From: an uncultured Rhodospirillales bacterium
Lineage (GTDB): Bacteria > Pseudomonadota > Alphaproteobacteria > ATCC43930 > CGMCC-115725
Direction of reading: 5' to 3'
Assembly: GCA_903822185.1 (NCBI GenBank)
Contig: CAIJOA010000020.1
Span: 1 to 64,000 of the forward strand
Length of the DNA: 64,000 nucleotides
Shown here: positions 1,921 to 28,940 of the stretch, piece after piece
How positions within the stretch are numbered: position 1 is the first letter of the stretch
Layout: each line of letters opens with the position of its first letter
Notes under the pieces: generated by a model
Databases searched by the model: none
Told to the model about the DNA's origin: nothing
Seen by the model: the letters and a program-made list of their open reading frames with translations, nothing else
Made by a program: the position numbers and the translations under genes

Positions 1921-3039
1921 ATGAACGATACCAATCCGCTGTTTGGCCGGAACCGGCTGAAGCTTGGCCTTTTCGGCGTCAATGTCAGCAACGGCTGCGC
2001 CGTCACAACCGTGCCGGAGCGGTTCGGCGCGACTTGGCCCGAAGCCCTTGCCATCGCCCAGATGGCCGATGGTTTCGGTTTCGAGGCTCTGGTTCCGGTC
2101 GCGCGCTGGAAGGGTTTCGGCGGCGAGACCAACATGAACGGCACCAATTTCGACACTTACACGTGGGCCGCGGGCATCGCCCAAGCGACCAAGCGCATCG
2201 GCGTCCTGACCACCTCGCATGTGCCGACGGTGCATCCGATCATGGCCGCCAAGCAATCGACCACCGTCGATCACATCAGCAACGGCCGTTTCGCTCTCAA
2301 CATCGTTTGCGGCTGGTTCGCGCCGGAACTCGAAATGTTCGGCCGCGACATCATGGAACACGACACACGGTACGATTACGCCGCCGAGTGGATCGAGATC
2401 ATGAAGCTGTTGTGGTCGCGCGAAGATGAATTCGATTACGAGGGAAAATTCATCCGCGTCAAAAAAGGCTTCGCCATGCCGAAGCCGATCCAGAAGCCGT
2501 TTCCGCCGCTGATGAACGCCGGCAGTTCCGGCAAGGGACGCGACTTCGCGGCGAAATATGCGGATATCGCGTTCCTCCATATCGACGCCAGCGACCTCGA
2601 TAAGGCCAAGGCGCATATCGACAGTTATCGCAAGCTAGCGCGCGAAGAATATGGCCGCGAGATTCACATCTGGTCGAATTGCCATGTGACCCAACGCGAC
2701 ACGCAGAAAGAAGCCGAGGATTATCTGCAGCATTACGTCGTAACCAAAGGCGACGATGTCGCCGCGGAGAACATCCTCGCTATCCAGGGCGTCCAGATGC
2801 AGCGCCTGCTGAGCGAAGAGCGCGAATACCGTAAGTTCAACGTTAAGGCCGGCTGGGGCGGCATGCCGTTGGTCGGCACCGCCGATCACATCGTCGAGAA
2901 GCTTATCAAGCTGAGCAGCATCGGCCTCGATGGCATTCTGCTGAGCTGGGTCGATTATCTCGACGGGATGAGGCGCTGGCACCGCGACGTGACACCACGA
3001 TTGGAGCAGGCCGGATTACGCTTGCCGCTGACCGATTAG
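1921..3039 (+). CDS. LLM class flavin-dependent monooxygenase (luciferase-like)
   Basis: This is a 372-residue TIM-barrel flavoenzyme of the bacterial luciferase superfamily, close in style to the SfnG/RutA-type two-component monooxygenases. Visible family features are the N-terminal GLFGVNVSNG strand, the mid-protein NIVCGWFAPELEMFG segment, and PPLMNAGSSGKGRDFAAKYADIAF as the phosphate-binding side of the barrel (quoted only as family landmarks at residues ~195-220). Such enzymes use reduced FMN and oxygen to oxidise small organic substrates and need a separate flavin reductase, which is not seen nearby. ATG 1921 is chosen over an in-frame GTG at 1900 because AAGGAAA lies just before it. 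It heads a group of oxidative catabolic genes. Confidence 0.88.
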   Translation: MNDTNPLFGRNRLKLGLFGVNVSNGCAVTTVPERFGATWPEALAIAQMADGFGFEALVPVARWKGFGGETNMNGTNFDTYTWAAGIAQATKRIGVLTTSHVPTVHPIMAAKQSTTVDHISNGRFALNIVCGWFAPELEMFGRDIMEHDTRYDYAAEWIEIMKLLWSREDEFDYEGKFIRVKKGFAMPKPIQKPFPPLMNAGSSGKGRDFAAKYADIAFLHIDASDLDKAKAHIDSYRKLAREEYGREIHIWSNCHVTQRDTQKEAEDYLQHYVVTKGDDVAAENILAIQGVQMQRLLSEEREYRKFNVKAGWGGMPLVGTADHIVEKLIKLSSIGLDGILLSWVDYLDGMRRWHRDVTPRLEQAGLRLPLTD

Positions 3040-3062
3040 CCCGCGAGCGCCAATTCATTTTT

Positions 3063-3148
3063 ATTCGTCACCCCCGCGAAAGCGGGGGGTCCATCTATCA
3101 ACGACACGGTTTGCGCCATGGATTCCCGCTTTGGCGGGAATGACGAAT
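3063..3148. repeat. Intergenic palindromic repeat, CGTCAyyCCCGC family
   Basis: Two arms (3063-3094 and 3118-3148) are imperfect inverted copies: ATTCGTCACCCCCGCGAAAG on the left and its counterpart ending in GGGAATGACGAAT on the right. Each arm itself contains the CCCGC-GAAAGCGGG hairpin. The element fills the space between two convergent genes and touches the stop codon of the minus-strand gene. This is a widespread alphaproteobacterial type of dispersed hairpin and may help end transcription on both strands. Confidence 0.8.
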
Positions 3149-4104
3149 TATAAGGGGCGCTTCAAACTCGGCATCAGTCGCAGCGCGTTCTCATATTCGA
3201 TCGCGCGAATATCGGCAGCGCTGAGCCCAAGCCCAGCTAGGCCATCGACCGTGCTTTCCGGCTTCACGTAGGGAACGTCCGTCCCGAACAAAAGCTTTAC
3301 CGCGGTCGTCAGCGCCAGCAGCGCCGCCATCGCCGGCGGATTAGTCACCGACACGACGTCGAAATTGAGTTTGCGGAATTCGGCAATGGCGCCGTCTGGC
3401 ATCAGTTCGGCAAGATCCTTGCGGACATTCACCAGATTGGCGACGCGATGCGCCAGCATGGGGATGGTGCCGCCGCCGTGCGAGAAGATAAAGTTGATAT
3501 CCGGGCAACGCTTTACCGTGCCGCCATAGACGAGACTCATGATCGCCCGCGTCGTATCGAACGGATATTCGATCATCGGCGCGTTGAGATCGGGCAGCAG
3601 ATTGCTGCAGCAGCCCGGCACCGTCGGATGAAAAAAGATCGTCGCCTTACGGCGGTTCAATTCGTCGAACACCGGCGCGAACGCCGGATCGCCCGGCCAT
3701 TGCGTTTCGTAACTCGTCTGCATCTTGAAGCCATCGCATTTCAAGACGTCGGCGGCATATTCGATTTCCTTGAGGCACAGATCGACATGCGGCAGCGGCA
3801 ACAACGCGAACATACCGAAACGGCCTGGGTGATCGACCGTCAATCGCGCGGCGAACTCGTTGCAGTCGCGCGCCAACGCATGCGCGCGCGCCGGATCGTC
3901 CGGGCGCGTGATCACTGTCGAGATCGACGTGACGGTCGTCGCGATGCCGGCGCGGTCCATCGCGTCGAGCGACATGCTGGGCGTCCATTGCGCGATGGTA
4001 TCGAAGCCGAGCGCGCGGCCTGCCATCCGCTCACGCTCTTCGTCGATCCAGCGCGGCGGCAGGATGTGATGATGGACGTCGATGCGATGCGGTGCCGTGC
4101 TCAT
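3148..4104 (-). CDS. Amidohydrolase family protein, ACMSD/gamma-resorcylate decarboxylase type
   Basis: This 318-residue protein belongs to the amidohydrolase-2 fold. The metal-binding HxH lies at the very N-terminus (DVHHHILPP, residues 10-17). The later landmarks are FFHPT, FSHGGGTIP and the catalytic-Asp segment FGTDVPYVKPEST. Members include aminocarboxymuconate-semialdehyde decarboxylase and hydroxybenzoate decarboxylases, which remove CO2 from aromatic or muconate acids using a divalent metal, and also some hydrolases. The gene runs opposite to the flanking oxygenase genes, back to back with the flavoprotein at 4221. A decarboxylase or ring-cleavage-product hydrolase role fits the context; the substrate is unknown. 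Confidence 0.87.
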   Translation of the reverse strand: MSTAPHRIDVHHHILPPRWIDEERERMAGRALGFDTIAQWTPSMSLDAMDRAGIATTVTSISTVITRPDDPARAHALARDCNEFAARLTVDHPGRFGMFALLPLPHVDLCLKEIEYAADVLKCDGFKMQTSYETQWPGDPAFAPVFDELNRRKATIFFHPTVPGCCSNLLPDLNAPMIEYPFDTTRAIMSLVYGGTVKRCPDINFIFSHGGGTIPMLAHRVANLVNVRKDLAELMPDGAIAEFRKLNFDVVSVTNPPAMAALLALTTAVKLLFGTDVPYVKPESTVDGLAGLGLSAADIRAIEYENALRLMPSLKRPL

Positions 4105-4220
4105 GATGTCTTCCTCCCGACTCTTTTAGATTTCTATCGGCCAGCTTAGCAGAAGCGCGTCCTTGTCCGCCAAAGTCGTTCTGCTAACGTCGATAACAAT
4201 AAAAGATAGGGAGACCGCCA

Positions 4221-5414
4221 ATGACCGAAACCGCGGCATCGCTGCTGGCCAAGGCAAAAGAGCTCGCACCGTTCTTCAGCGCGAATGCGCCGCGCAACGA
4301 AGCCGCCGGGATGCTGGTACCCGAAACCATCGACGCGCTGAAAAGCAGCGGCCTCTTTCACATGCTGGTCCCAAGCTGCTTCGGCGGCGTCGAGGTCGAT
4401 CCGGTCCAAGCGCTCGAAATCATCGAGGCGGTCAGCTACGGCGACGGCTCGACCGGTTGGGTGCTGATGGCGGCGCAGATCTGCACCGGCGCGGCCGCGG
4501 CCTATCTTCCACCCGAGACGGCGAAGGCGCTGTTTACGAACGCGACACCGGTCGTGGCAGGACAGGGAGCGCCGAACGGCCGCGCCGTTCGCGATGGTGA
4601 CGGCTTTCGTCTCAGCGGCAAGTGGGGCTATGCCAGCGGGCTGCGTCACGCTGATTACATTCATACCGGCGGTACGGTGATCGAGGACGGCAAGCCGCGC
4701 CTGATCCCCGGCACCAACCAGCCGGATTACCGTACCTTCATCGTCCCCGTGCGCGACGCCAAGTTTGAGGGAAACTGGGACGTGATGGGTTTGAAGGCGA
4801 CGGGCAGCATCGATTACAGCATCGACAATGTCTTCGTGCCCGAAGCCTTCACCCATTCGCCGATATCGACCACGCCCAACCAGGGCGGAAGCTTCTTCCA
4901 TCTCGGCCTGCTCGCCATGACATCGATCGGCCATAGCGGCTTTGCCCTCGGCGTCGGCCGGCGGGCGCTCGATGAGTTGGCCGCGCTGATGCAGCAGAAA
5001 GCGCCGCGGCGCGGCTTCCTGCCGCCGGTCGCGGAGACGGACGGTTTCCAGGAACGCTTTGGCGCGGCCGAGGCGGATCTTCGCGCGGCCCGCGCCTTCA
5101 TTTATGAAATCTGGGGCGATATCCGCGACACGGTTCAACGCGGCGATCCATTGAGCACGCGGCAGATGACCTTGCAGCGGCTTGCCCTCAACCATGTCAC
5201 CACGGCCGTCGCCGAGATCGTCACCTTCACCTACAAAGCCGCCGGCGGAGTCGCCCTGCGCGAGAGCGTCGTGCAACGCTGTTTCCGCGACATGTTCGCC
5301 GGGACACAGCATTTCCTCACCACGCCCACCGTCCTCAAAGAGTGCGGCCGGGAACTGGCCGGGCTGGCCGATGGGCAGGTTTGGAATATCTTGGGCCTCG
5401 TGGATCGTCCCTGA
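4221..5414 (+). CDS. Acyl-CoA dehydrogenase-fold flavin monooxygenase (HsaA/DszC-like)
   Basis: This 397-residue protein has the acyl-CoA dehydrogenase fold. The N-terminal helical domain carries LVPSCFGGVEVDP, the central sheet carries GKWGYASGLRHADYI and GLKATGSIDY, and the C-terminal helices resemble those of group D flavin monooxygenases (HsaA, DszC, HpaB-like). In these enzymes FMNH2 from a partner reductase activates oxygen to hydroxylate aromatic or sulfur compounds. The dehydrogenase catalytic Glu pattern is not evident, which favours the monooxygenase reading. GGGAG precedes ATG 4221. It is followed 93 bases later by a second luciferase-like monooxygenase on the same strand, so the two may be cotranscribed. 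No reductase gene is adjacent. Confidence 0.84.
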   Translation: MTETAASLLAKAKELAPFFSANAPRNEAAGMLVPETIDALKSSGLFHMLVPSCFGGVEVDPVQALEIIEAVSYGDGSTGWVLMAAQICTGAAAAYLPPETAKALFTNATPVVAGQGAPNGRAVRDGDGFRLSGKWGYASGLRHADYIHTGGTVIEDGKPRLIPGTNQPDYRTFIVPVRDAKFEGNWDVMGLKATGSIDYSIDNVFVPEAFTHSPISTTPNQGGSFFHLGLLAMTSIGHSGFALGVGRRALDELAALMQQKAPRRGFLPPVAETDGFQERFGAAEADLRAARAFIYEIWGDIRDTVQRGDPLSTRQMTLQRLALNHVTTAVAEIVTFTYKAAGGVALRESVVQRCFRDMFAGTQHFLTTPTVLKECGRELAGLADGQVWNILGLVDRP

Positions 5415-5507
5415 GGCGAAGACTCGTAGGGCTGGAAATTCCGTGGGCGGATCGGTAGGTTTCCGAGAGTCGCGATACACGTAAAAGCAGGTCCGGAGGA
5501 AACGTTC

Positions 5508-6548
5508 ATGGATTTCGGGATTTTTTCGAATAGCCGGCGCCCGACCCGCGCCCTGGCGGATTCCTGGACCCGTGACATCGAGGAAATTCAGGTCGCCGAC
5601 CAGTTGGGCATGAACGTCGCCTGGATCAGCGAGCATCAATCGCCCGCCGAATTGATCATCTGCAAAGCCGCCGGCGTGACCAAGAACATCAAGCTGGGCT
5701 CGGCCGTGCGCCCGCTGGCCTATTACCACCCGCTGCAAGTCGCGATCGAGGCCAACGCCTGCGATCAGCTGACCAACGGGCGTTACCAACTGGGCGTCGG
5801 CTTTGGTTTTTACCCGGCGCAAATGCAGCAGCGCGGGCTCGATTTCGCCAAGACGCGCGACATGATGCACACCTCGGTCGAGCTGATCCTGAAGTTGTGG
5901 AACAGCAAAGAGCCGATCGATTTCGACGGCCCGTTCTGGACCGGCCGCGCGATGGAAGCGAAGCCCGAACCGGTGCAGAAGCCGCATCCGCCGATCGGCA
6001 TCGCCCTCAGCAAGACCGCGTCCTCGGCCCAGCTCGCGGGACGGTTGGGCCTCCTGCCTCTGACGGGCGATTTCATTCCCGTGCCGCGCCTCAAAATGAT
6101 GGGCGACGCTTTCGTCGCCGCGCAGGTCGCCGCCGGCAAGCCCGCGCGCCGCAAGGATCTGCACGCGACCCGCGTCATCTATGTCGCCGAGACCGATGCG
6201 AAGGCGCGCGAGGATATGCGCGAGTCCTATGAAGAAACCATCCGCTGGGAAATCAAGAACACGCCGCATCATCAGGTCGAGCGCATTCCCGAAGGCGGCA
6301 CGCTCAACGACATCACCTATGATTACCTGATCGAGACCGGCAACCTGTTCATCGGCAGCCCGGAGACGGTCCAGAAGCGCATCGCCGATTTCTACGACAA
6401 GAGCGGCGGCTTCGGCACGCTGATGTTCCACGCTGGCCGCGACTATGCGACGCCGGAAAAACTCAGCCGCTCGATGAAACTGTTCATGGACGAAGTCGCG
6501 CCGCGCATCCGCCATCTCGATCCCGATCAGGCGCTCGCAGCGGAATAA
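5508..6548 (+). CDS. LLM class flavin-dependent monooxygenase (second copy type)
   Basis: This 346-residue luciferase-superfamily protein starts MDFGIFSNSRRP and shows the family pattern: WISEHQSPAELIICKAAGV near residues 43-61, RPLAYYHPLQVAIEANACDQ with the family's early barrel strands, and a QLGVGFGFYPAQM turn. The C-terminal GSPETVQKRIADFYDKSGGF segment is typical. It is not a close duplicate of the enzyme at 1921. GGAGGAAA just before ATG 5508 is a strong ribosome site. Reaction: FMNH2/F420-type dependent oxidation; the cofactor cannot be told from sequence alone, though the proteobacterial setting favours FMN. Confidence 0.88.
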   Translation: MDFGIFSNSRRPTRALADSWTRDIEEIQVADQLGMNVAWISEHQSPAELIICKAAGVTKNIKLGSAVRPLAYYHPLQVAIEANACDQLTNGRYQLGVGFGFYPAQMQQRGLDFAKTRDMMHTSVELILKLWNSKEPIDFDGPFWTGRAMEAKPEPVQKPHPPIGIALSKTASSAQLAGRLGLLPLTGDFIPVPRLKMMGDAFVAAQVAAGKPARRKDLHATRVIYVAETDAKAREDMRESYEETIRWEIKNTPHHQVERIPEGGTLNDITYDYLIETGNLFIGSPETVQKRIADFYDKSGGFGTLMFHAGRDYATPEKLSRSMKLFMDEVAPRIRHLDPDQALAAE

Positions 6549-6575
6549 AGAAGGTCGATTGCACTCGACCCCGAG

Positions 6576-6667
6576 CCCTTCGACAAGCTCAGGGTGAGGT
6601 GAAAGCGAGACTGGCCCTTCGGTCGATGCCCGACACAGACCATCCTCACCCTGAGCCTGTCGAAGGG
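6576..6667. repeat. Intergenic palindromic repeat, CCTTCGACAAGCTCAGG family
   Basis: Arms at 6576-6599 and 6644-6667 are 24-base inverted copies with one mismatch (CTTGTCGAAGGG versus CCTGTCGAAGGG when aligned). The 44-base loop has no other visible feature. It lies between a stop codon at 6548 and the next gene. This is a repeat type known from many proteobacterial genomes; one copy is seen here. Confidence 0.85.
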
Positions 6668-6822
6668 CGCTGGATGAAATTGCAACGAAACGACAAACGG
6701 CGCAGATGATCTCCGCGCCGTTTTCATTTGTCCGCGATGGCACGCTTGCCGTCAACCTTCCAGTGTGGCCAAATCAGTCTCACAGCGGCTTTCGAAATGC
6801 CGCGACGATTTGGAGGAACACC

Positions 6823-7947
6823 TTGAAACATTGGCTGATCGCCGCCTTGCTGCTCGCCGCCACACCCGCCTTTGCGCAGGAAGCGGCGCCGGAAATACCG
6901 TTCGATTCCGCACCCGACTTCCTCAAGCTGCCCAAGGACATGTATCTGGGCGAAGCCTCGGCGGTCGCGGTCAATTCCAAGGGCCATATCTTCGTCTTCT
7001 CGCGCGGCGGGTCCAGCATGGGGCCGGCCTTTGCCGAGACGGCGGCGCAGTTGCTGGAATTTGCGCCGAACGGTCAGTTCGTGCGCGAGATCGGCAAGAA
7101 TCTTTATGCCTGGTCCTTCGCCCATGGCGTGAAGATCGACCGGCACGACAATATCTGGGCCATCGATAAAGGCTCGGACATGATCGTCAAGTTCAAGCCC
7201 GACGGCCGCGTCGATATGGTGTTCGGCCGCAAGCAGGAAGCGTCGGACGACGATACCGCGCCGCTGAAACATCCGAACCCGCCACTGCCCGCGGTCGATG
7301 GCCGCTTCCGCCAGCCGACCGACGTCGCCTTCGACCAGCACGACAATGTCTTCATCAGCGACGGCTACATCAATTCGCGCATCGCCAAGATCAACAAGGA
7401 CGGCTTCTGGGTGAAGTCCTGGGGCGATCGCGGCAGCGAGCCGGGCCAGTTCAGCACCGCCCACGGCATCGGCACCGACGCCCAAGGAAACGTCTATGTC
7501 GCCGACCGCAGCAACCGCCGCATCCAGGTCTTCGACGGCGACGGCAAATTCCTGCGCCAGTTCAGCATCGACCAGCCGGTGCCCGCCGACGCTTACGAGA
7601 TCATCGGCAACAAGCCGGCGGATTCGATGGCTGCGGGCACGCCGCCCCTGCTGAAGCCGGGCGCGCCTTGGGTTATCTGCATCAGCCCGCCGCCGCATCA
7701 GTTCCTCTTCACCGCCGATGCCTTCCCGGGCCGGGTCTATAAAATGACCCTCGACGGCAAGGTGGTCGGAATGCTGGGCAAGGCCGGGCGGCAGTTGAAG
7801 CAGTTCGGCTGGATTCACGGCATGGCCTGCCCGAACGAGAACACCCTGTTCGTGGCCGAGGCGCTGAATTGGCGGGTCCAGAAACTGACCCTTCACCCGG
7901 CGAAAACGGCCCAAGCCGACACCGCGAAGACCGCCAAGGCCAAATGA
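6823..7947 (+). CDS. Exported NHL-repeat beta-propeller protein (PAL/SMP-30-like)
   Basis: The start is a TTG at 6823, preceded by GGAGGA at 6812-6817; it gives a clean signal peptide (MKHWLIAALLLAATPAFAQ) and a 374-residue precursor. The earlier ATG at 6706 would place about 39 unlikely residues ahead of that signal peptide. The mature part carries NHL-type blades: GEASAVAVNSKGHIFVFSR, QPTDVAFDQHDNVFISDGY, STAHGIGTDAQGNVYVADR. This architecture resembles peptidyl-hydroxyglycine lyase-like and other NHL proteins. A periplasmic binding or lyase role is possible, but nothing proves catalysis. It ends with an Ala/Lys-rich tail. Confidence 0.82.
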   Translation: MKHWLIAALLLAATPAFAQEAAPEIPFDSAPDFLKLPKDMYLGEASAVAVNSKGHIFVFSRGGSSMGPAFAETAAQLLEFAPNGQFVREIGKNLYAWSFAHGVKIDRHDNIWAIDKGSDMIVKFKPDGRVDMVFGRKQEASDDDTAPLKHPNPPLPAVDGRFRQPTDVAFDQHDNVFISDGYINSRIAKINKDGFWVKSWGDRGSEPGQFSTAHGIGTDAQGNVYVADRSNRRIQVFDGDGKFLRQFSIDQPVPADAYEIIGNKPADSMAAGTPPLLKPGAPWVICISPPPHQFLFTADAFPGRVYKMTLDGKVVGMLGKAGRQLKQFGWIHGMACPNENTLFVAEALNWRVQKLTLHPAKTAQADTAKTAKAK

Positions 7948-8037
7948 CGGGTGGGCGCGCGGCGTGGGCCGCCGCGCGCTTGACCTAAACCCCGCTTCAA
8001 GCGACCCTGCGCGCCTTCAAGCAGGAAAGCCTTTGCC

Positions 8038-9597
8038 ATGGATTCGACCGAACGCCGCACGCCCTCCGCCAACGATCTCGACCGGTTCGGGTTGAGGCGG
8101 TTCCTTGAGGACGCGGTCGCCGCAGGCCTTTGCGACGTTCACACCGCACCGATCGACCTCGCCGATGTCGCCGAGAAGATGGAAAGCGACAACGCCGTCT
8201 GGTTCAAATCCGCCGGCCCGGAAAAGGCCGAGCTGGCCGGAGGCGTTATGGGCAGCCGGTCGCGCCTCGCCCTCGCCTTCGGCGTCAAACCGGACAAGCT
8301 GCTGGCCGAGGTCATGCGCCGCCTGCAGAACAAGCCCGAGATCGTCGAGATCAGCCGCGACCAGGCCCCGGTGCAACAGGTCGTCCTGACCGGCGACCAG
8401 ATCGATCTGACCACCCTGCCGGCGCATCTGTCGCACGGCCTCGACGGCGCGCCGTACATCTCGGCCTCGATCGACTATGTCTTCGACAAGGCCACCGGCC
8501 TCACCAATGTCGGCGTCCGCCGCCTGATGCTGCGCGGCCCGACCGAGACCGGTGTCGATCTGGTCAGCCCCAGCGATCTGCGCGCCATCTATGAACAACA
8601 TGCGGCGCGCGGCGAGAATCTGCCGGTCGCCTTCACCGTCGGCGTCAATCCGATCGACATGGTCGCGGCGACGATGCGCATGCCCGTCGATGAGATGGGC
8701 CTTGTCGCATCATTGCGCGATGCGCCGCTGCATGTCGTCAAATGCATCACCAACGACATCCGCGTTCCCGCCGATGTCGAATATGTCATCGAGGGTTATT
8801 TCGATTCGCGCGGCCATGTCGAATCCGAAGGGCCGTTCGGTGAGTTCCTCGGCTATTACGGCGGCGTCAAACAGAACCCGGTGTTCCATTGCACCGCGAT
8901 CACCCACCGCCGCAATCCGGTGTTCCAGGCCGCGACCATCGGCGGTTATCGCAACGACCGCACCGACACGGCGATGCTGAATGGGCTTCGTACCGAAGCG
9001 ATCGTGTGGCAGTCGCTGCAAACCGCGGTACGCGAGCCGCTGAACGTTTATGCGACGCCGGCGTCGGGCGGCATGTTCAATGTCCGCATTTCGATGCGCC
9101 AGCGCGTGCCGGGCGAGGCGCGCAACGCGATCCTCGCCGCCTTCTCGTGCCTGGCGAACATCAAGAACGCCTTCGTCGTCGATCCCGATATCGACATCTT
9201 CTCGGATTCGCAGATGGATTGGGCGCTGGCGACCCGGTTCCAGCCCGATCGTGACCTGATCGTCGAAAGCGGCCTCAGGACCCTGCCGCTCGACCCGTCG
9301 ATCGCGCACGGCACCCGCGTCGGCGGCAAGGCGGGCTTCGACCTGACCTGGCCCTTCGGTACCGGCGGCGCGATGGAGCGCACCGTGCCCGAGACGCCGA
9401 AATACCAGGGCAAGAAATTCGCCAGCGTCGAGGCCGCCCTGACCGACGGCCCCAAGACCTTCGAGGAGTTGATGACCGCGATCGGCAGCCGGGATGGGCG
9501 CGAAATCGTCCGGACGCTGGACGGTTTCCGCAAGGCCGGAACGCTGGGCCGCGACGAGCGTGGGCGGTGGGCCTTGCGCCCAACCCAAACCCCGTGA
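8038..9597 (+). CDS. UbiD family decarboxylase
   Basis: The 519-residue protein is a UbiD-type (de)carboxylase, which uses prenylated FMN and a metal to decarboxylate unsaturated or aromatic acids. Landmarks are the N-terminal RRFLEDAVAAG, the domain core NVGVRRLMLRGP, the E-x-GPFGEF motif (ESEGPFGEFLGYYGG), and HCTAITHRRNPVFQA. The ESEGPFGE segment carries the active-site Glu residues of the Fdc1/UbiD family. The C-terminal ~70 residues form an extra winged-helix-looking tail (SVEAALTDGPKTFEELMTAI). The prFMN-making partner UbiX is not in this window. It precedes the beta-keto acid cleavage gene by 33 bases, so both are probably cotranscribed and part of one catabolic route. Confidence 0.92.
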   Translation: MDSTERRTPSANDLDRFGLRRFLEDAVAAGLCDVHTAPIDLADVAEKMESDNAVWFKSAGPEKAELAGGVMGSRSRLALAFGVKPDKLLAEVMRRLQNKPEIVEISRDQAPVQQVVLTGDQIDLTTLPAHLSHGLDGAPYISASIDYVFDKATGLTNVGVRRLMLRGPTETGVDLVSPSDLRAIYEQHAARGENLPVAFTVGVNPIDMVAATMRMPVDEMGLVASLRDAPLHVVKCITNDIRVPADVEYVIEGYFDSRGHVESEGPFGEFLGYYGGVKQNPVFHCTAITHRRNPVFQAATIGGYRNDRTDTAMLNGLRTEAIVWQSLQTAVREPLNVYATPASGGMFNVRISMRQRVPGEARNAILAAFSCLANIKNAFVVDPDIDIFSDSQMDWALATRFQPDRDLIVESGLRTLPLDPSIAHGTRVGGKAGFDLTWPFGTGGAMERTVPETPKYQGKKFASVEAALTDGPKTFEELMTAIGSRDGREIVRTLDGFRKAGTLGRDERGRWALRPTQTP

Positions 9598-9630
9598 ATA
9601 TTACGCGCCTTCAAGTTTCAGGAGAGTGAG

Positions 9631-10515
9631 ATGGCACGGAAAGTCATGATTTCCTGCGCGCTGACCGGCGCCGCGGATACCCCCGGCAAAAACCCGGCCG
9701 TTCCGGTGACGCCGAAAGAGATCGCCGAATCCGGCATCGCCGCTGCCAAGGCGGGCGCCGCCATCATCCATATCCATGTCCGCGACCCCCAGACCAAGGG
9801 GCCGAGCATGGAATTGGCCTATTATAAAGAGGTCATGGATCGGGTTCGCGACAGCGGCACCGACGTCATCATCAACCTGACCACCGGCGCGGGCGCCCGC
9901 TTCGTCCCCGGCAGCAACGATCCGATGATCCCCGATCCGCGTTCGACCATGGTGTCGCCCGCCGAACGCGTCAGCCATGTGGTCGAACTGAAACCCGAAA
10001 TCTGCTCGATCGATATGGGCAGCATCAACATGGGCAACTTCGTCTTCATCAACACGGTGCCGCAGATCGAAGAGATCGCCACGGCGATCCGCGATGCCGG
10101 CGTCGTACCCGAGATCGAAGTGTTCGAACCCGGCCATATCCTTCTCGCCAACAAGATGATCCAGAGCGGCCACTTCAAGACGCCGACCCTGTTCCAGGTC
10201 TGCCTGGGCGTCCTCTGGGGCACGCCGGCCACGCCCGACGCGATGAAGTTCATGACCGACCTTCTGCCGAAGCAGGACTGCACCTGGTTCACCTTCGGCT
10301 GCGGCGCGCAGCAGTTCCCGATGGTCGCGCAGGCGATGCTCTATGGCGGCCATGTCCGCGTCGGCCTTGAGGACAATCTCTATCTCGCCAAGGGCCAGCT
10401 CGCCCCGTCGAACGCGGCGCTGGTCGCGAAAGCGGCAGGCATCATCGAAACGTTGGGCGAAGAGCTGGCGACCCCGGCCGAAGCCCGCAAGATGCTGGGC
10501 CTCAAGGCCGCTTAA
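9631..10515 (+). CDS. BKACE family beta-keto acid cleavage enzyme (DUF849, Kce-like)
   Basis: This 294-residue TIM-barrel enzyme condenses a beta-keto acid with acetyl-CoA and cleaves it into acetoacetate and a new CoA ester (Kce reaction type). The zinc ligands are visible as HIHVRDP near residues 49-55 and the Glu of RVGLEDNLYL near 247. The N-terminal SCALTGA strand and the NLTTGAGA segment also match. The family accepts many R-groups, so the substrate here is unknown. CAGGAGAG lies before ATG 9631. Together with UbiD just upstream it suggests processing of an acid produced by the flavin oxygenases. Confidence 0.92.
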   Translation: MARKVMISCALTGAADTPGKNPAVPVTPKEIAESGIAAAKAGAAIIHIHVRDPQTKGPSMELAYYKEVMDRVRDSGTDVIINLTTGAGARFVPGSNDPMIPDPRSTMVSPAERVSHVVELKPEICSIDMGSINMGNFVFINTVPQIEEIATAIRDAGVVPEIEVFEPGHILLANKMIQSGHFKTPTLFQVCLGVLWGTPATPDAMKFMTDLLPKQDCTWFTFGCGAQQFPMVAQAMLYGGHVRVGLEDNLYLAKGQLAPSNAALVAKAAGIIETLGEELATPAEARKMLGLKAA

Positions 10516-10604: not shown

Positions 10605-11888
10605 CTAACTCTTGAATAATTTCTCGAATCCGTTCCAGACCGAATCATAATCGCGCTGCAGCGCTGTTGTTTCGAGCGCGAAGCGGGTCGGGCACAGCAC
10701 CTGCTGCGTCTCGAACATGAAGGCGAGGCCGAGGTCCCAGTAGAACGGTTTGAGGTCCGCGGTCGAGTTCGTCACGAAGCTCGCCTGATCGGGACCATGG
10801 CCGGCCATGCAGTTATGAAGACTGCCCCCGCCCGGCACGAAGCCGCCGGCCTTGGCGTCATAAGCGCCGTTAATGAGCCCCATATATTCGTTCATCACAT
10901 TGCGATGAAACCACGGCGCGCGAAAGCTGTGTTCCGCCACCATCCAGCGCGGCGGGAAAATGACGAAGTCGAGATTGGCCGTGCCGGTAACGCCCGACGG
11001 CGAGGTCAGCACGGTGAAGATCGACGGGTCGATATGATCGAAGCTGACCGTGTTGATCGTGTTGAAGCGGGCGAGGTCATATTTGTACGGCGCATAATTG
11101 CCGTGCCAGGCGACGACATCGAGCGGGCTGTGTCCGATCTCGGTCGCCCACAGATGACCGGCAAATTTCTGCACGATCTGCGTCTTCGGATCGCGATCTT
11201 CGAATGACGCAACCGGCGTTTGGAAGTCGCGTGACGCAGCAAGACCGTTCGATCCAATCGGCCCCAGTTCGGGGAGACGCAACATCGCGCCGTAATTTTC
11301 GGCGACATAGCCGCGCGCCGTCGCATCCAGAATCTCGGCGCGGAATTTGACGCCGCGCGGCATGACCGCGATCTCACCGGGGGCGATATCAACGATACCC
11401 AGTTCGGTGACGAGACGCAGGCGGCCTTCCTGCGGCACGAACAACAATTCACCGTCGGCATCGAAAAAGACGCGATCCGTCATCGAGCGGTTGGCGCGAT
11501 AAAGATGCACCGCCATGCCGGTATGTGCGGCGGCCTCGCCATTGCCGCAGATCGTTACCAGCCCGTCGATGAAATCGGCCGGCCCGTCCGGCATCAGCAG
11601 CGCATCCCAGCGCAGACGATTGGGCGTCGGCTCGGCTTCGGTGAACGGCGCGCTGCGGATGAGGCCGTCATCCAACCGCTTGAACGGCGGATGCATCGCC
11701 GAAGGACGAATACGATAGAGCCAACTGCGCCGGTTTTCGGCGCGCGGTGCGGTGAAGGGCGTGCCGCTGAATTGTTCGGCGTAGAGCCCCAGCGGCGCTT
11801 GCTGCGGTGAGTTTTGTCCGGACGGCAACGCGCCCGCAACGGCCTCGGTCGCGAAATCGTTGCCGAAGCCGGATAGATAGTTTGTCAC
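10605..11888 (-). CDS. hmgA: Homogentisate 1,2-dioxygenase
   Basis: The enzyme opens the ring of homogentisate to maleylacetoacetate, the central step of tyrosine and phenylalanine breakdown, using Fe(II). The N-terminal [13 protein letters not shown] is a family hallmark, followed by LPSGQNSPQ and [15 protein letters not shown]. The iron-ligand region is seen in [13 protein letters not shown] and in [14 protein letters not shown]. The start is GTG at 11888, sharing GTGA with the stop of the upstream monooxygenase; this gives 427 residues, the usual length. A longer ATG-type start would run 93 bases into the neighbour. The partners fahA and maiA are not adjacent. Confidence 0.95.
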
Positions 11889-13087
11889 CGCAACATGCCC
11901 GACCGCCGCAGCGAGGCGATCATCGAGGTTTCGAGGAGATGCGTGTAGGTCGCCTCGCGCGATGCGCCGAGCGCGCGCCAAGCATCGAGGTTACGCGCCC
12001 GTACTTCCGGGTCACGTTCTTCCATCAGCTTCTTGTTGCGCCCCGTCTGGCCGAGGATCGCCTGAACCGCTTCGGGTTTGCGTTGTGGCTCGTAGCCGTC
12101 GAGTTCGCTTTCGGGCGCTTCGCCGTGCCAGACGCGCGCGAGACGTTGCGTCAGATTGACCGCATCGTGAATGCCGCCATTGAGGCCGAGCCCACCCAGC
12201 GGATTGTTGATATGCGCCGCGTCGCCGGCAAGAAAGCCGCGGCCGCGACGATAGGTCTGCGCCACGCGCTGACTGACGCGATAGATCGCTTTAACGACGA
12301 TCTCGTAAGGCTCCGAACGCGGCCAGAGATTTTGCAGGCAGTTCTGCAGATAGGCTTCCTGCATCGCATCGTCCGGTTCGACGTTCGGATCGACCGGCGC
12401 CACGATACGCCACATGTCGGGGATTTCCAGCAGCACATACCAGTTGTCGGGATCGGCTGTGTAATTGACCGAACAGATATCGCCCATCTGCGTCTTGAAG
12501 TCGTAGCGCGTGCCGGCGACGAGGAAATGTTCGGGATAGGTGAAGCCTTCGAATTCGATATTCAGCGCCTTGCGGACGAGGCTGCGCCCGCCATCGCCGG
12601 CGATGAGAAAATCGCCTTTGAAGGTCTTCGGTCCCAAAGGACCTGTCGTCTCAACGACGGCCTCGTCATCGCCCATCGTGACTTTCGTCACCTCGTGCGA
12701 GAGCAACAGTTCGACGTTCGGCATCTTGCGCAGTTCGGGATAGAGCCAGCCGACCAGCTTGAATTGTTCGCATTGCAAACGGTACGGATGCCGCGTGTCG
12801 TTCTTGAGCATCGTCATGTCGAATTCGACGATCTTGCCTTGCTGCCGGTCGCGATATTGCATCAGCGGACAGATGAGGCCCATCGACACCATTGCCTGCG
12901 CCGCACCGCATTCCTCCAACAGATCAAGCGTCGGCGGCTGAATCGTCGATGCGCGATAATCGAGGACGACATCGTCGGCCCGTTCCAACACCGTCACCGG
13001 AATGCCGCGCTGCGCCAACAACAACGCCGCGACGGAACCCACCGGCCCGCCGCCGACGATAAGAACGCGATCATGCTTCAGCCGCAT
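11885..13087 (-). CDS. FAD-dependent aromatic monooxygenase (PHBH fold)
   Basis: This 400-residue class A flavoprotein monooxygenase has the three expected motifs: [17 protein letters not shown] near the N-terminus for FAD, a DG segment ([15 protein letters not shown]) in the middle, and GD ([21 protein letters not shown]) near residue 280. Such enzymes use NAD(P)H to hydroxylate phenolic rings. The ATG at 13087 is preferred over an in-frame GTG at 13102 because it clears the upstream stop by two bases. It is coupled to hmgA through a GTGA overlap, so formation of homogentisate or a related hydroquinone is a reasonable inference. The exact substrate is not determined. Confidence 0.88.
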
Positions 13088-13089
13088 CG

Positions 13090-14496
13090 TTACGCCTTGC
13101 ACATCGGCGGAGTGCCAAGCCGTTCGCGCGGCGTGCCGAGGACGCCTTCGACAGCACAGGCGATCGCCACCAGTTTCTCGTCATCGCCGCCTTTGGCAAT
13201 CAGCTGCAGCCCGACCGGCATGCCGAGACGATCGAGCCCGACCGGCAGGGTTGCGGCGCAGAGCCGGAGGAAATTTCCCGGCACCAGATTGTGAACGATG
13301 CCGCGATTGCGCGCCCAGAATTTTTCCGGTCCTTGTTCTTCGGTCATGACATGCGGCGTCAGCATCACGGTCGGCGTTGCGATGACATCGACATCGTCGA
13401 ACCGGGCGACGGCGCGTTTTTCCGCATCGGCCAAGCGCATCAGCCGCGTCAGATATTCGCGCGCGGGGATATTGGCCGCGCCATTGACCGCCGGCGCGTT
13501 GACGGGGTCGATGGTCGCCAGCCAATCCGGCAATTCACGATCGAGGAAGGCGCGGAACTCGATGCCCGAGACGCCGCCTTCGGCAAAGACCGCGAAAGCT
13601 TCGGCCGCTTCCGGCAAAGACTTCTCGCGGACCATCGCACCAGCACTTGCGAGGGAATCGAGCGCCTGTTTTACGACTTTGGCGATACCGTTTTCGCAGC
13701 CGTCCCAGAACCAGGAGTCCGCGAGGCCGATGCGCAGCCCCTGCACACCCGACGGCACGCGGCGCATAAAGTCGAAGCCGTCGCCCAGTTGCGGATCGAG
13801 CGCGGCGAAGCTGAAGGCCGCATCGGCCATACTGCGCGCCATGATGCCCGGCGTATCGAAGGTGAAGCTGAGCGGGACGATGCCTTCGCTGGACCAGCGG
13901 TCCTTGGTGAATTTCAAACCGGCATTGCCGGTCATCGACGCGGGCAACCGCACCGATGCTGCCGTGTCGCTGCCGAAAGCGAGCAGCGCCGAGCCTTCGC
14001 AAATTGAAACGCCCGCGCCGCTCGACGAGCCGCCGGGCGAGCGATGTAGCTTCGCATCCCAGGGATTGCGCGGTGCGCCGTAATGCGCGTTATGGCCGGT
14101 GCCGCCGAAGGCGAATTCGACCATATGCGTCTTGCCCATCACCGTGCCGAGTTGTCGGCGCAGGCTGGCGACGACGGGACCATCGACTTCGAATTTTGCC
14201 GGCAGGCGTTTCGGCGATCCCGCATAGGTTGGAAAGCCCGAGACGGCAAAAAGATCTTTGATCGAAGTCGGTATGCCCTGCAGCGAACCGGCACGTGCGC
14301 CGACGGCGAAAGCCGCATCGGCGGCATCGGCGCATTTACGCGCATGATCCGGCGCCCATTGCGAATAGGCCATCAGCTTCTCGCCGCAGCGATCGTGATT
14401 GGCGATCGCTTCTTCGGCCAAAGTACGCGCCTTGATCTCGCCTTCGCCCATCAGCACGGCAAGCTCGGCGATGGGGCGTGTCAGCGCCTCGGTCAT
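13090..14496 (-). CDS. Amidase signature family hydrolase
   Basis: The 468-residue protein has the Ser-cis-Ser-Lys triad of the amidase signature family: Lys80 in TSIKD, the cis-serine in GGSSSG (residues 155-160) and the nucleophile Ser181 in SDTAASVRLPA. The usual GG before the nucleophile is replaced by AA, which is uncommon but seen in aryl and fatty amide hydrolase subgroups. It should cleave an amide to acid and amine in the cytoplasm. It is placed 12 bases after an amidotransferase gene and 2 bases before the FAD monooxygenase, so the product acid could feed the aromatic route. Substrate unknown. Confidence 0.9.
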   Translation of the reverse strand: MTEALTRPIAELAVLMGEGEIKARTLAEEAIANHDRCGEKLMAYSQWAPDHARKCADAADAAFAVGARAGSLQGIPTSIKDLFAVSGFPTYAGSPKRLPAKFEVDGPVVASLRRQLGTVMGKTHMVEFAFGGTGHNAHYGAPRNPWDAKLHRSPGGSSSGAGVSICEGSALLAFGSDTAASVRLPASMTGNAGLKFTKDRWSSEGIVPLSFTFDTPGIMARSMADAAFSFAALDPQLGDGFDFMRRVPSGVQGLRIGLADSWFWDGCENGIAKVVKQALDSLASAGAMVREKSLPEAAEAFAVFAEGGVSGIEFRAFLDRELPDWLATIDPVNAPAVNGAANIPAREYLTRLMRLADAEKRAVARFDDVDVIATPTVMLTPHVMTEEQGPEKFWARNRGIVHNLVPGNFLRLCAATLPVGLDRLGMPVGLQLIAKGGDDEKLVAIACAVEGVLGTPRERLGTPPMCKA

Positions 14497-25589: not shown

Positions 25590-26159
25590 TTGTCCGACCT
25601 GCCGCGCCCGCGCAAATCCGATGTCGCCCGTGACCGTATTCTGGCAGCCGCCCGGCGGATTTTTTCCGAAGAAGGCTATGAAGGCACGACTATTCGCGCG
25701 ATAGCCGCGACGGCATCGATCAACCCAGCCATGGTCATGCGCTATTACGGCTCAAAAGAAGGCCTTTTCGCCGCTGTCGCCAATCTCGATTTCAGGGTAG
25801 CGCCCTTGGCCGGCGTGCCGGTCGCCGAGCTTGGTGAAGCCCTTGTCAGGCATGTCATGGCGTTATGGGAGAACCCGCGTGACGGGGTGGTCCTCGCGGC
25901 GATGATGCGCGCCTCGATCTCGAACGAAAGTGCGCGCGAGCGTATCGTCGCGCAGTTTTCAGAACAGATCGCCGGCCTGTTTAGCGCCATTGGCCCCACG
26001 GCGGCGCCGGCGGCACCTTTTATCGCGACGCAAATTCTCGGGCTGGCGATGGCGCGTTATATCTGGCGGATCCCCGCCATTGTCGCTCTTCCGAAAGACC
26101 TCGTCGTCACGCGGATCGGCAAGACCGTGCAGCGCTATTTGACGGATATCAGCGCATAG
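25590..26159 (+). CDS. TetR family transcriptional regulator
   Basis: The 189-residue protein has an N-terminal TetR helix-turn-helix (ARDRILAAARRIFSEEGYEG, TTIRAIAATASINPAMVMRYYGSKEGLFAAV, residues ~12-60) and a helical ligand domain. TTG 25590 is chosen because GGAG lies seven bases before it; a GTG at 25578 is the alternative. It is divergent from the CocE-type hydrolase, and the intergenic space holds two matching palindromes. A simple model is autoregulation plus repression of the hydrolase, released by a substrate-like ligand. Confidence 0.92.
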   Translation: MSDLPRPRKSDVARDRILAAARRIFSEEGYEGTTIRAIAATASINPAMVMRYYGSKEGLFAAVANLDFRVAPLAGVPVAELGEALVRHVMALWENPRDGVVLAAMMRASISNESARERIVAQFSEQIAGLFSAIGPTAAPAAPFIATQILGLAMARYIWRIPAIVALPKDLVVTRIGKTVQRYLTDISA

Positions 26160-26249
26160 GTCGTGCCCCACGACGCGGCAAGCCGGCTAGTGAGTGCGAG
26201 TTTGTTAGTCGAGCGGTTCGGTCCGCTGATTCAGCGCGCTCGATGCCGG

Positions 26250-26290
26250 AAAATCCGGTCTATCCGAATTATTTTATCTGATCGGATTTT
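26250..26290. other. Inverted repeat AAAATCCG / CGGATTTT
   Basis: Eight-base exact arms are separated by 25 A/T-rich bases, about 90 bases after the TetR gene. A weak T-run follows inside the right arm. It may form part of a terminator, but the long loop makes this doubtful. Confidence 0.25.
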
Positions 26291-26347
26291 TAGACATTTG
26301 GGAACCCAGAGACGCTACGTCTTTCAAAAACTGTCGACGTTCTCTGA

Positions 26348-26378
26348 CGCAATGGGAGATAACACCTCTCCCATTGCG
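26348..26378. terminator. Perfect 12-bp hairpin between convergent genes
   Basis: CGCAATGGGAGA and TCTCCCATTGCG form an exact 12-base stem with a seven-base loop. It is ten bases from the stop of the minus-strand membrane protein and about 190 bases after the TetR gene. There is no T-run immediately after either side, so termination is likely but not certain. Confidence 0.5.
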
Positions 26379-26388
26379 GACACGGTCG

Positions 26389-26979
26389 TTAGTCTTCGAT
26401 CTTCTCATACCATTTTCTGCCCGATTTTTTGGGCCGATAAGGACCCTTGAACGTTCCAAATCGAAACTTGTTCGTTATCAACAACGCTGGAATCCATAGC
26501 CCCATCAAAAGCAGTGCCGCATCTTTCGCTTCCACCCGATATGGAGTTGGGAGAAATCCGGCAATCAGAAAGAGTGCGATAGCTGGAAAGCAGAAGCAGC
26601 CTGTAACCAAACTTGCGAACGCGTCGGGCTTTCGTTTGTGTTCGTTTTCCACTCCCACCTGCGCCAAACTCGACGGATTGGTTTCGTTTGATCTACGCCC
26701 CGACAGTCGCTCTTCCGCCTTTTCGTCAGCGGCCTTCATAAAGTTCGGCCAGACCTTTCCGTAAATAAGCCGCGCTATTAAGGCCGACGGAAAGACCGAG
26801 AATACGAAGCTAGCGAATGCAATAGTGTGTTCATTCAGGCCGAACCGGTGAAGAACGATGATTTCGATCGTAAACAAAAGGAAGCAAACTGGTATTGAGA
26901 GAACCCCAATGCCCATTTTGGCACGCCGTTCCTGAGGCGACAAATTGACATCGAGCCGGTTAAACCACCACATATTCAT
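26389..26979 (-). CDS. Hypothetical four-helix membrane protein
   Basis: The 196-residue protein is not recognised. Hydrophobic segments are seen near residues 23-43 (GIGVLSIPVCFLLFTIEIIV), 50-70 (IAFASFVFSVFPSALIARLI), 125-145 (LVTGCFCFPAIALFLIAGFL) and 155-170 (ALLLMGLWIPALLI). A charged loop of about 50 residues separates the second and third. Base composition is noticeably richer in A+T than the surrounding genes, which hints at separate origin. A perfect hairpin lies right after its stop. Confidence 0.65.
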   Translation of the reverse strand: MNMWWFNRLDVNLSPQERRAKMGIGVLSIPVCFLLFTIEIIVLHRFGLNEHTIAFASFVFSVFPSALIARLIYGKVWPNFMKAADEKAEERLSGRRSNETNPSSLAQVGVENEHKRKPDAFASLVTGCFCFPAIALFLIAGFLPTPYRVEAKDAALLLMGLWIPALLITNKFRFGTFKGPYRPKKSGRKWYEKIED

Positions 26980-27299
26980 GACAAATGTTCCAAGTGTCTT
27001 TGAAGAGAGATGTGATCGAATAGGCCCGGCAGAGATTAAGATTGGGAAAAAATCACCATCAAATGTTGTGACCCGGTAACTCGGTCCAAGGCGTCTTCGC
27101 TACCCGGCATTCAAACCAGGCTGCTCGATGACTAGGACTCCTAGGTATCAGCAGTCGTCTGATTGATCGGCCCGGATCGACCTTCTAATCGCGGCTGTTG
27201 GCTTGCCCAGAGCATCACGGTCGGCGCATCGACGACGTTACCCTTCGTGATGGATAACCTCGCCCGCAAGATTCAGGAATTGGTCAACGGTTGAAAGTT
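26980..27299. other. Gene-poor, A+T-richer gap with possible gene remnant
   Basis: No convincing gene is seen. The 13-base palindrome CTAGGACTCCTAG lies at 27132-27144. A plus-strand frame that ends in a stop at 27292-27294 reads VGASTTLPFVMDNLARKI and a few more residues, which looks like the end of a lost protein-coding gene but cannot be assigned. Upstream sequence for the minus-strand membrane protein should include its promoter near 26990-27060. Confidence 0.4.
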
Positions 27300-27319
27300 G
27301 TAGCTCCCGAGGGAGCTAC
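27300..27319 (-). terminator. Hairpin embracing the stop codon of the coiled-coil gene
   Basis: GTAGCTCCC and GGGAGCTAC are exact inverted repeats with a two-base loop. Read on the minus strand, the TAG stop of the gene at 27316 forms part of the stem and a short T-rich stretch follows. Likely an intrinsic terminator for the two-gene unit 28487-27316. Confidence 0.5.
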
Positions 27320-27948
27320 CTTGAAAAAACCTTTTGGATATAGGTCTTCGAATCGTTTTCGGTGGCGTTACCTTCGCTGGTGGCTTTGTTTTTTTCGCCT
27401 TCGGCCTGAGTAGCCGTCGCTTTGCCCTCATCCGAAAGCTTTGATTTCACGCCTTCCGACACGTTCAGCGTCGCTTTTCCTTGATCGGAAAGATTCGACT
27501 TTACGCCCTCGGAAAGATTGCGGTTCACATCGGCCTGGGACTGGATCACGTCCGTTTTACTCGCCTCGCGCTTCAATTCCTGATCGATGTAATCATTCGC
27601 ACGTGCCGCACGTGCGCGTTCGACATCGAGCTGAATTTTTTCGTGCTCCAGCGCGAGTTTCGCCTTTTCGTCTTGAAGAGACTGGACACGTGCTTTGTCT
27701 TTTAGACGCTCGTCATCCGCGGCTTTCGCGGCCTCTGCCCGTCGTCTTGCATCCGCAGCTTGAGCCGCGCGAGCTTCCGCCTGTTGCTGCTGCTCAAAAA
27801 GCCTTTGTTGCTGCAACCGATTTTGCTCATCTGCTTTTCGGTCTTGTTCGACTCTTTGCAAATTTTGGATTTGAGAATCGAGAGCCGATTGAGCACGGGC
27901 TTGGGCTGCTCCTAAAATTAGGAGCAGCGTCAGTAACAACGATTTCAT
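27316..27948 (-). CDS. Exported coiled-coil protein with C-terminal repeats
   Basis: The 210-residue precursor has a signal peptide (MKSLLLTLLLILGAAQARAQ), then a long Gln/Arg/Ala-rich coiled coil (residues ~25-130, with a QQQQ run). Two near-identical 17-residue units follow (each SEGVKS-LSD-GKAT, residues ~144-177), then a Lys/Glu/Thr-rich tail. It should be periplasmic or surface associated. CGGAG precedes ATG 27948, and the lipoprotein gene ends 14 bases upstream, so they form an operon. I cannot name a function. Composition is less G+C-rich than the surroundings. Confidence 0.7.
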   Translation of the reverse strand: MKSLLLTLLLILGAAQARAQSALDSQIQNLQRVEQDRKADEQNRLQQQRLFEQQQQAEARAAQAADARRRAEAAKAADDERLKDKARVQSLQDEKAKLALEHEKIQLDVERARAARANDYIDQELKREASKTDVIQSQADVNRNLSEGVKSNLSDQGKATLNVSEGVKSKLSDEGKATATQAEGEKNKATSEGNATENDSKTYIQKVFSR

Positions 27949-27962
27949 CGATCGGCTCCGAA

Positions 27963-28487
27963 CTAGCTTTTCGAGCCTGTGTCAGCGGGGCAGCTTGAAT
28001 TCGGCTGCACGCGCGTTTCGTTCGGTCCAGTGGAGATCAACACGGAAGGACCTAGTTTATATTCGCACACGCGACCGACTTGCGTTGATGAAAGCGTTTT
28101 GTCGTTCTCGACGTAGGTCAACGTCACACCATCGACGAGCACTTTATCGGAAACGAGAGAACCCGCCGCAACGCCGGCACCGGCACCGCCCGCAACGCCA
28201 ACCGCGGTTCCCACTAGATTTCCGTTTCCGAGCGTATTGCCGAGAACGGCGCCGCCGACAGCGCCGAGCACGCCGCCGATAACCTGCGCCGTTTGCTTAG
28301 CCTGCGTATTCGGAACTTCGACTTTGGCCGGAAGAATGACCAGGACCGAAATTACCTTCGCATCTTGGACCTGATTGATCTGATTCGCTTTATAGACATT
28401 GGCCTGATATTCGGCGCCTGGCGGCGTGCACGCCGTGATTGCGACCAAGGTGAAAGCGACACCCGTCGCGCGCATAAGGTTCTTCAC
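27963..28487 (-). CDS. Lipoprotein with glycine-zipper domain (SlyB/PcP-like)
   Basis: The GTG at 28487 follows GGGGAG by eight bases and gives a 174-residue precursor with a lipoprotein signal ending in AITAC. The middle holds a Gly-zipper two-helix segment (IGGVLGAVGGAVLGNTLGNG and VGVAGGAGAGVAAGSLV) as in the SlyB/17 kDa antigen group. The tail is a small beta domain with one Cys pair (RVCEYKLG, NSSCPAD). It is likely an outer membrane lipoprotein with structural role. A longer in-frame ATG at 28595 is rejected because it would bury the signal peptide. Confidence 0.8.
   Translation of the reverse strand: MKNLMRATGVAFTLVAITACTPPGAEYQANVYKANQINQVQDAKVISVLVILPAKVEVPNTQAKQTAQVIGGVLGAVGGAVLGNTLGNGNLVGTAVGVAGGAGAGVAAGSLVSDKVLVDGVTLTYVENDKTLSSTQVGRVCEYKLGPSVLISTGPNETRVQPNSSCPADTGSKS

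Positions 28488-28865: not shown

Positions 28866-28940
<75 letters not shown>

Follow-up and report, generated by a model that had tools for sequence, protein, structure and literature searches.

Do the oxygenase, decarboxylase and cleavage genes that lie side by side in the genome of an uncultured Rhodospirillales bacterium form a single catabolic unit, and if they do, on what kind of compound would it act? The genes occupy positions 1921–10515 of a 64,000-nucleotide stretch (the window; contig CAIJOA010000020.1, here C20) of a 4.27-Mb genome (G000, the own genome). They encode two luciferase-like monooxygenases (LLM), an ACMSD-type amidohydrolase of the Amidohydro_2 family (AH2), an HsaA/DszC-like flavin monooxygenase, a UbiD-family decarboxylase and a beta-keto acid cleavage enzyme (BKACE), and they adjoin a gene for homogentisate 1,2-dioxygenase. 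On balance we lean towards an island, confined to the genus, that serves the catabolism of an aromatic or heteroaromatic acid. The locus is a conserved, probably catabolic island that is assembled from known kinds of enzymes and is itself ordinary in kind. The complete row recurs in the closest sequenced relative, a congener (G001), where the genes keep the same order and orientation at 72–88% identity. No description of this gene set was found among the titles and abstract openings of the open-licence literature.

Conservation of the row

Amongst the 99 genomes searched, the own genome included, the numbers of genomes with a match differ from gene to gene: LLM2 is matched in 14 genomes (at 1e-40), UbiD in 10 (1e-60), HsaA in 24 (1e-50) and LLM1 in 15 (1e-80). 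The complete set stands in one row only in the congener, which reads LLM1, AH2 (reversed), HsaA, (VOC, Amidohydro_1 and a 145-residue gene), LLM2, (Kup and SDR, both reversed), NHL, UbiD, (DUF4062, reversed), BKACE, hmgA, FAD hydroxylase and amidase, the last three reversed. The genes in parentheses are absent from the window locus, and either gain or loss would account for them; the 145-residue gene has no Pfam hit. AH2 is 82.6% and the NHL protein 81% identical between the two species. The ratio of nonsynonymous to synonymous substitution (dN/dS) is 0.13–0.20 for seven cluster genes, compared with 0.21 for gpsA, and the seven genes are under purifying selection.

The interleaved VOC gene of the congener encodes an extradiol-type dioxygenase and is adjacent to hsaA, which speaks for a role in aromatic catabolism; the own genome holds a 61% paralogue of it on contig C11. 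The same contig carries a paralogous pair of VOC and Amidohydro_1 genes (L113, 6827–9385; about 60%) beside an FAA_hydrolase gene, matching the pair inside the cluster of the congener.

Beyond the genus the picture changes. When the draw was widened to 385 genomes of the class, five of them, the own genome being one, had a UbiD match at 1e-140. The homologues of the cluster genes in the other relatives that were opened lie in different, mostly catabolic loci, some of their neighbours being named from the sequence without a family search. HsaA relatives at about 58% (G008, G022) have as neighbours an alpha/beta hydrolase, an Amdase-family protein and a gene resembling FAD monooxygenases. Mo-hydroxylase, crotonase or FAD-monooxygenase genes accompany the UbiD relatives at about 60%, which again favours a catabolic island. 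LLM2 relatives at 65–67% accompany Amdase-family and mandelate-racemase-type genes. Of the 15 places with an LLM2 match, the window and eight others were read with wide surroundings, and the six at 33–35% identity were left aside. On plasmids, BKACE relatives at 49–55% have genes for catechol 1,2-dioxygenase, FAH or VOC proteins as neighbours and, in one case, carnitine-operon-like genes. In one further genome (G014, contig C356) LLM1 (54%) and HsaA (38%) lie about 2 kb apart, a partial echo of the row. The settings of the relatives are catabolic, but the gene sets differ. The preliminary description had proposed a conserved neighbourhood as its test, and the neighbourhood holds within the genus only; in the other relatives opened the genes lie apart.

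Gene content of the locus

Pfam and NCBIfam profile searches of the window proteins recovered every family that the preliminary description had named, at the positions given here:

1921–3039, plus strand: LLM1, luciferase-like monooxygenase of the RutA/SfnG/SsuD branch (PF00296, 9.6e-60; PDB 5wan RutA, 3.2e-37)
3148–4104, minus strand: AH2, ACMSD-type amidohydrolase, a probable decarboxylase or hydrolase (PF04909, 1.1e-32)
4221–5414, plus strand: HsaA/DszC-like flavin monooxygenase, oxygenase component (NF045629 HsaA, 133 bits, under the cut-off of 450)
5508–6548, plus strand: LLM2, second luciferase-like monooxygenase (PF00296, 4.7e-44; PDB 4uwm, 1.6e-22)
about 6823–7947, plus strand: NHL-repeat protein with a signal-peptide-like N-terminus (PF01436, 5.3e-14)
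8038–9597, plus strand: UbiD-family decarboxylase with a C-terminal extension (PF01977/PF20696; TIGR00148, 271 bits, above the cut-off of 244.85)
9403–9576, plus strand: predicted winged-helix-like C-terminal domain of UbiD, residues about 456–513 (AlphaFold2 model, PDB fold matches)
9631–10515, plus strand: BKACE/DUF849 protein of the 3C6C/BsfD subgroup (PF05853, 3.7e-102)
10605–11900, minus strand: hmgA, homogentisate 1,2-dioxygenase (TIGR01015, 651 bits, above the cut-off of 510.75)
11885–13087, minus strand: MhpA-like FAD aromatic hydroxylase (PF01494, 5.4e-59; under the NCBIfam cut-offs)
13090–14496, minus strand: amidase (PF01425, 3.6e-70)

Two corrections apply to the earlier account: AH2 lies on the strand opposite to the rest of the cluster, and an NHL-repeat gene between LLM2 and UbiD had been overlooked. 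The start of the latter was placed by comparison with the congener, and its signal-peptide-like N-terminus is a reading of the sequence. The NHL protein is 68–70% identical to proteins of Caballeronia replicons. The genes at 11885–14496 and hmgA form a tight minus-strand operon that faces BKACE and is kept in the congener. Further along the window the local G+C content dips to 0.52 (26001–28000), upstream of a tRNA-Thr gene at 28866, and only small open reading frames occur there.

None of the three oxygenases, LLM1, LLM2 and the HsaA-like protein, reaches an NCBIfam equivalog cut-off. LLM1 falls short of membership in both SfnG (192 bits, cut-off 383) and RutA (148 bits, cut-off 498). The nearest solved structure of LLM2 is 3,6-diketocamphane monooxygenase (PDB 4uwm, 1.6e-22), a type II Baeyer–Villiger enzyme. 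The HsaA-like protein is closest in the PDB to Rv3094c (8.6e-37) and 3-HSA hydroxylase (3.7e-24). AH2 matches 2f6k (3.8e-27) and ACMSD (4ign, 8e-21), which together with its domain places it in the ACMSD/LigW type, and it has no NCBIfam family match at E 0.001. A 71% paralogue of LLM1 in the own genome lies near LigB and Mo-hydroxylase genes, and this too is in keeping with aromatic catabolism.

An island or chance neighbours?

The own genome contains 51 LLM genes, 57 Amidohydro_2 genes over cut-off and 11 UbiD genes in 4.27 Mb. Amidohydro_2 is likewise abundant in the congener (72 matches) and in two members of the family (38 each), and is represented by 8 and 6 genes in two more distant genomes. 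Such an expansion raises the chance that genes of these kinds meet, and it is conceivable that the enzymes are chance neighbours serving pathways encoded elsewhere, their row being kept only since the two species are close. Several observations count against an island, and all but the first of them also favour this alternative. The genes at 1.9–10.5 kb of the window include no regulator, transporter or ring-cleavage dioxygenase; the complete set is found in no opened relative besides the congener, and there the row is broken by unrelated genes, a K+ transporter (Kup) and a DUF4062 gene; and the NHL gene stands without the other cluster genes in both Caballeronia stretches that were read. Against chance stands a Poisson estimate from the own-genome counts, which gives a random 8.6-kb stretch with at least two LLM, one AH2 and one UbiD gene a P of about 1e-5, or about 0.006 genome-wide, a figure that takes no account of the tendency of catabolic genes to cluster. 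Furthermore, order and orientation have been kept despite three insertions or deletions, and some of the genes gained or lost are themselves of this catabolic kind. We regard mere coincidence as unlikely, if still a serious contender. The gene coincidence exceeds random scatter, yet part of it is background, and where such genes are scarce the same row would stand out more.

A wider association of UbiD with Amidohydro_2 genes is suggestive only. In the own genome seven of the 11 UbiD genes have an AH2 gene within 7 kb (on C11, C28, C30, C48 and C20; P = 0.00065 on ten UbiD genes, the eleventh, on a contig without AH2, being left out), the distance being chosen post hoc, since P is 0.085 at 1 kb and falls to 0.00065 only at 7 kb. 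In the congener the linkage is not significant (three of seven clade UbiD genes within 7 kb of an AH2 among the matches listed, P = 0.12).

A putative route and its cofactors

If the genes form a catabolic island, the HsaA-like and luciferase-like enzymes would insert oxygen using reduced flavin from unlinked reductases, and an extradiol-type dioxygenase, which in the congener is adjacent to hsaA and here would be the paralogue on C11, would open the ring. AH2 would decarboxylate or hydrolyse an intermediate. UbiD, charged with prenylated flavin mononucleotide (prFMN) through a single unlinked UbiX, would remove a ring carboxylate, and BKACE would cleave an anionic-ended beta-keto acid with acetyl-CoA, yielding acetoacetate and an acyl-CoA. 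The order of the genes says nothing about the order of reactions. The preliminary description had read the row as stepwise oxidation, decarboxylation and CoA-linked cleavage, which stays an inference; the row of the congener and the plasmid parallels support a catabolic aromatic or heteroaromatic locus, whereas a single ordered pathway is not supported, the row being interrupted in the congener, the genes lying apart in the other relatives opened and the families being expanded.

The cofactor partners agree with the earlier observation that neither a flavin reductase nor UbiX is adjacent. A search of the own genome for PF01613 (Flavin_Reduct) returned four genes, on C1, C11 and C28, and none on C20, other reductase families not being searched. 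One UbiX (C5, 34025–34528; TIGR00421, 227 bits, above the cut-off of 108.9), unlinked to the cluster, serves a genome of 11 UbiD genes, so that a supply of prFMN is encoded within the same genome. If the proposed route is correct, the island would add a way of degradation that links CoA-dependent cleavage to the chemistry of prFMN and flavin, and it would do so in a lineage where such genes abound.

The beta-keto acid cleavage enzyme

The nearest solved DUF849 chains are BsfD (9zsc, 4e-84) and 3c6c (1.5e-81). The Zn ligands H47, H49 and E247 align with H48, H50 and E247 of BsfD and thus conform to the canonical BKACE ligand set, and the canonical catalytic tyrosine (Tyr145/173) is replaced by Phe165, as in BsfD. 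The preprint on BsfD (PMC12871164) links the altered chemistry of that enzyme to several features, one of which is Phe166 instead of Tyr, and explains its preference for phosphonates by a loop of 20 residues that contains Arg91. The window protein has both features, a loop insertion with Arg90 and Phe165. We aligned it with the congener protein and with eight plasmid proteins from among the 40 plasmid matches listed. All ten rows of this subgroup carry Phe at the Tyr column; the residue marks the subgroup, and its diagnostic value is accordingly doubtful. BsfD-like acetyl-transfer chemistry was set aside on the same ground, the ten rows including the protein of the carnitine-like operon (so read from neighbouring 3-hydroxyacyl-CoA dehydrogenase and thioesterase genes). 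The Phe-for-Tyr exchange of BsfD occurs also in ordinary-looking catabolic relatives, so that taken alone it is perhaps no sign of new chemistry. The loop residue is more variable: the proteins of the window and the congener and four of those from plasmids have Arg, the carnitine-like-operon protein has Glu, and the remaining three have Asp, Leu and Gly. Arg90 forms the basis of our prediction, suggesting a substrate with an anionic far end.

These likenesses raise the possibility that UbiD and the DUF849 enzyme build a molecule rather than degrade one, in a small natural-product cluster akin to that of BsfD in flavophos biosynthesis. The structural match and the shared Phe and Arg loop are what would be expected, but the Phe is a mark of the subgroup, present even beside carnitine-operon-like genes, and the cluster genes include no phosphonate, non-ribosomal peptide synthetase, polyketide synthase or resistance gene. 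We hold this explanation to be very improbable.

A further alternative extends the homogentisate route: the amidase, the FAD hydroxylase and HmgA would supply a 3,5-dioxo acid, formed by ring cleavage, as substrate for BKACE, which would replace or supplement fumarylacetoacetase. Arg90 fits an anionic acid, the conserved operon of the three genes faces BKACE, and BKACE scores 247 bits with the model of the 3,5-dioxohexanoate enzyme. This score is, however, under the cut-off of that model (430), the genes lie on opposite strands, and the UbiD, LLM and HsaA genes are left unexplained. We regard the extension as improbable.

UbiD and its C-terminal domain

The decarboxylase is a member of the UbiD family, with PF01977, PF20695 and PF20696 all over cut-off, and the E-R-E triad (R162, E264 and E269) is conserved in 29 of 29 rows of its clade. 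Its nearest solved relative is HmfF, furan-2,5-dicarboxylate (FDCA) decarboxylase (PDB 6h6v, 9.7e-64), with which it shares the E-R-E residues. H297 of HmfF is tied to furan specificity in a published account (PMC7976604). The window protein by contrast has Thr311 in this column, as placed by alignment, and all 29 clade rows have T, S, A or G. Decarboxylation of FDCA was rejected as its function on this column.

Residues from about 456 to 513 form an extension that is present in all 27 unique clade sequences; six UbiD copies of the own genome belong to this clade. The alignments of 40 PDB relatives, among the matches listed, stop before it (last residue 456). The extensions of four proteins gave no Pfam hit at E 10, and the sole PDB sequence match is at chance level (E 1.5). 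An AlphaFold2 model from a two-sequence alignment has the succession helix, strand, helix, helix, strand, strand, with a core confidence (pLDDT) of 84–88 and a mean of 75.2; a model of the full-length protein (pLDDT 29.3) was not usable. The Foldseek matches were for the most part to winged-helix proteins, the best with an E of 0.010 and none at or below 0.001, and VIA-align superposed the model on solved winged helices with Z up to 9.3 and a root-mean-square deviation of 2.2 over 71 residues. By topology and structural match the modelled domain is winged-helix-like.

In the 27 rows the charge of the extension ranges from nearly neutral to acidic (K+R 6–12, D+E 8–12), and a G-x-x-D-G-R turn is invariant. 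Because of this charge and this turn we read the predicted domain as a putative protein-contact module; a DNA-binding role is still conceivable. No description of a winged helix, a helix–turn–helix or a C-terminal extension in UbiD was found in titles and abstract openings of the open-licence literature. In this domain a much-studied enzyme family has a variant that is definite enough for experiments, and it is the part of the locus most worth testing.

A more ambitious reading would join these strands: the UbiD would stand for a subfamily of prFMN decarboxylases not described before, in which the fused winged helix (GxxDGR) acts as a docking element or lid and not as a DNA binder, and this subfamily would work with ACMSD-type amidohydrolases in a heteroaromatic acid degradation driven by flavin monooxygenases, the LLM and amidohydrolase expansion of the family paralleling that of SAR202. 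As a whole we offer it as a speculation that is rather unlikely to hold in full.

Comparison with known systems

The HsaA-like oxygenase invites comparison with two-component phenol hydroxylases of the hsaAB and hpaBC type that are paired with an extradiol dioxygenase. The oxygenase is common to both, and the congener has a VOC dioxygenase directly after it; unlike these systems, the window locus has neither a reductase gene alongside nor a dioxygenase, and its oxygenase scores under the HsaA cut-off. Another comparison is with a locus on plasmid pla of Paraburkholderia sp. D15 (L236), which shares an opposite-strand amidohydrolase, an HsaA-like oxygenase, a VOC gene and a second AH2 at 47.8%. 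It differs in possessing a flavin reductase, FAH and an aldehyde dehydrogenase, in lacking UbiD, BKACE and LLM within the 19 kb seen, and in an HsaA-like gene that is only 27% identical to that of the window. Plasmid pBcn842-1 of B. cenocepacia offers another partial parallel, with a reductase, HsaA-like, VOC and MhpA-like genes and a BKACE at 49%.

In comparison with the hmf cluster of HmfF, the window UbiD has no adjacent Mo-hydroxylase or CoA ligase gene and bears the additional C-terminal domain. The BKACE belongs to the same subgroup as BsfD of flavophos biosynthesis and RaKce 3C6C, with the same Zn-ligand residues, Phe165 and the Arg90 loop insertion; in contrast to these it lies in a catabolic-looking neighbourhood, and its chemistry is predicted only. 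At the level of the genome, SAR202 bacteria show an expansion of luciferase-like monooxygenase (FMNO) paralogues, with up to 114 copies (PMC6946804). The LLM expansion described here resembles it, with 51 copies, in a genome that is not of the Chloroflexota and in which 57 Amidohydro_2 genes stand alongside.

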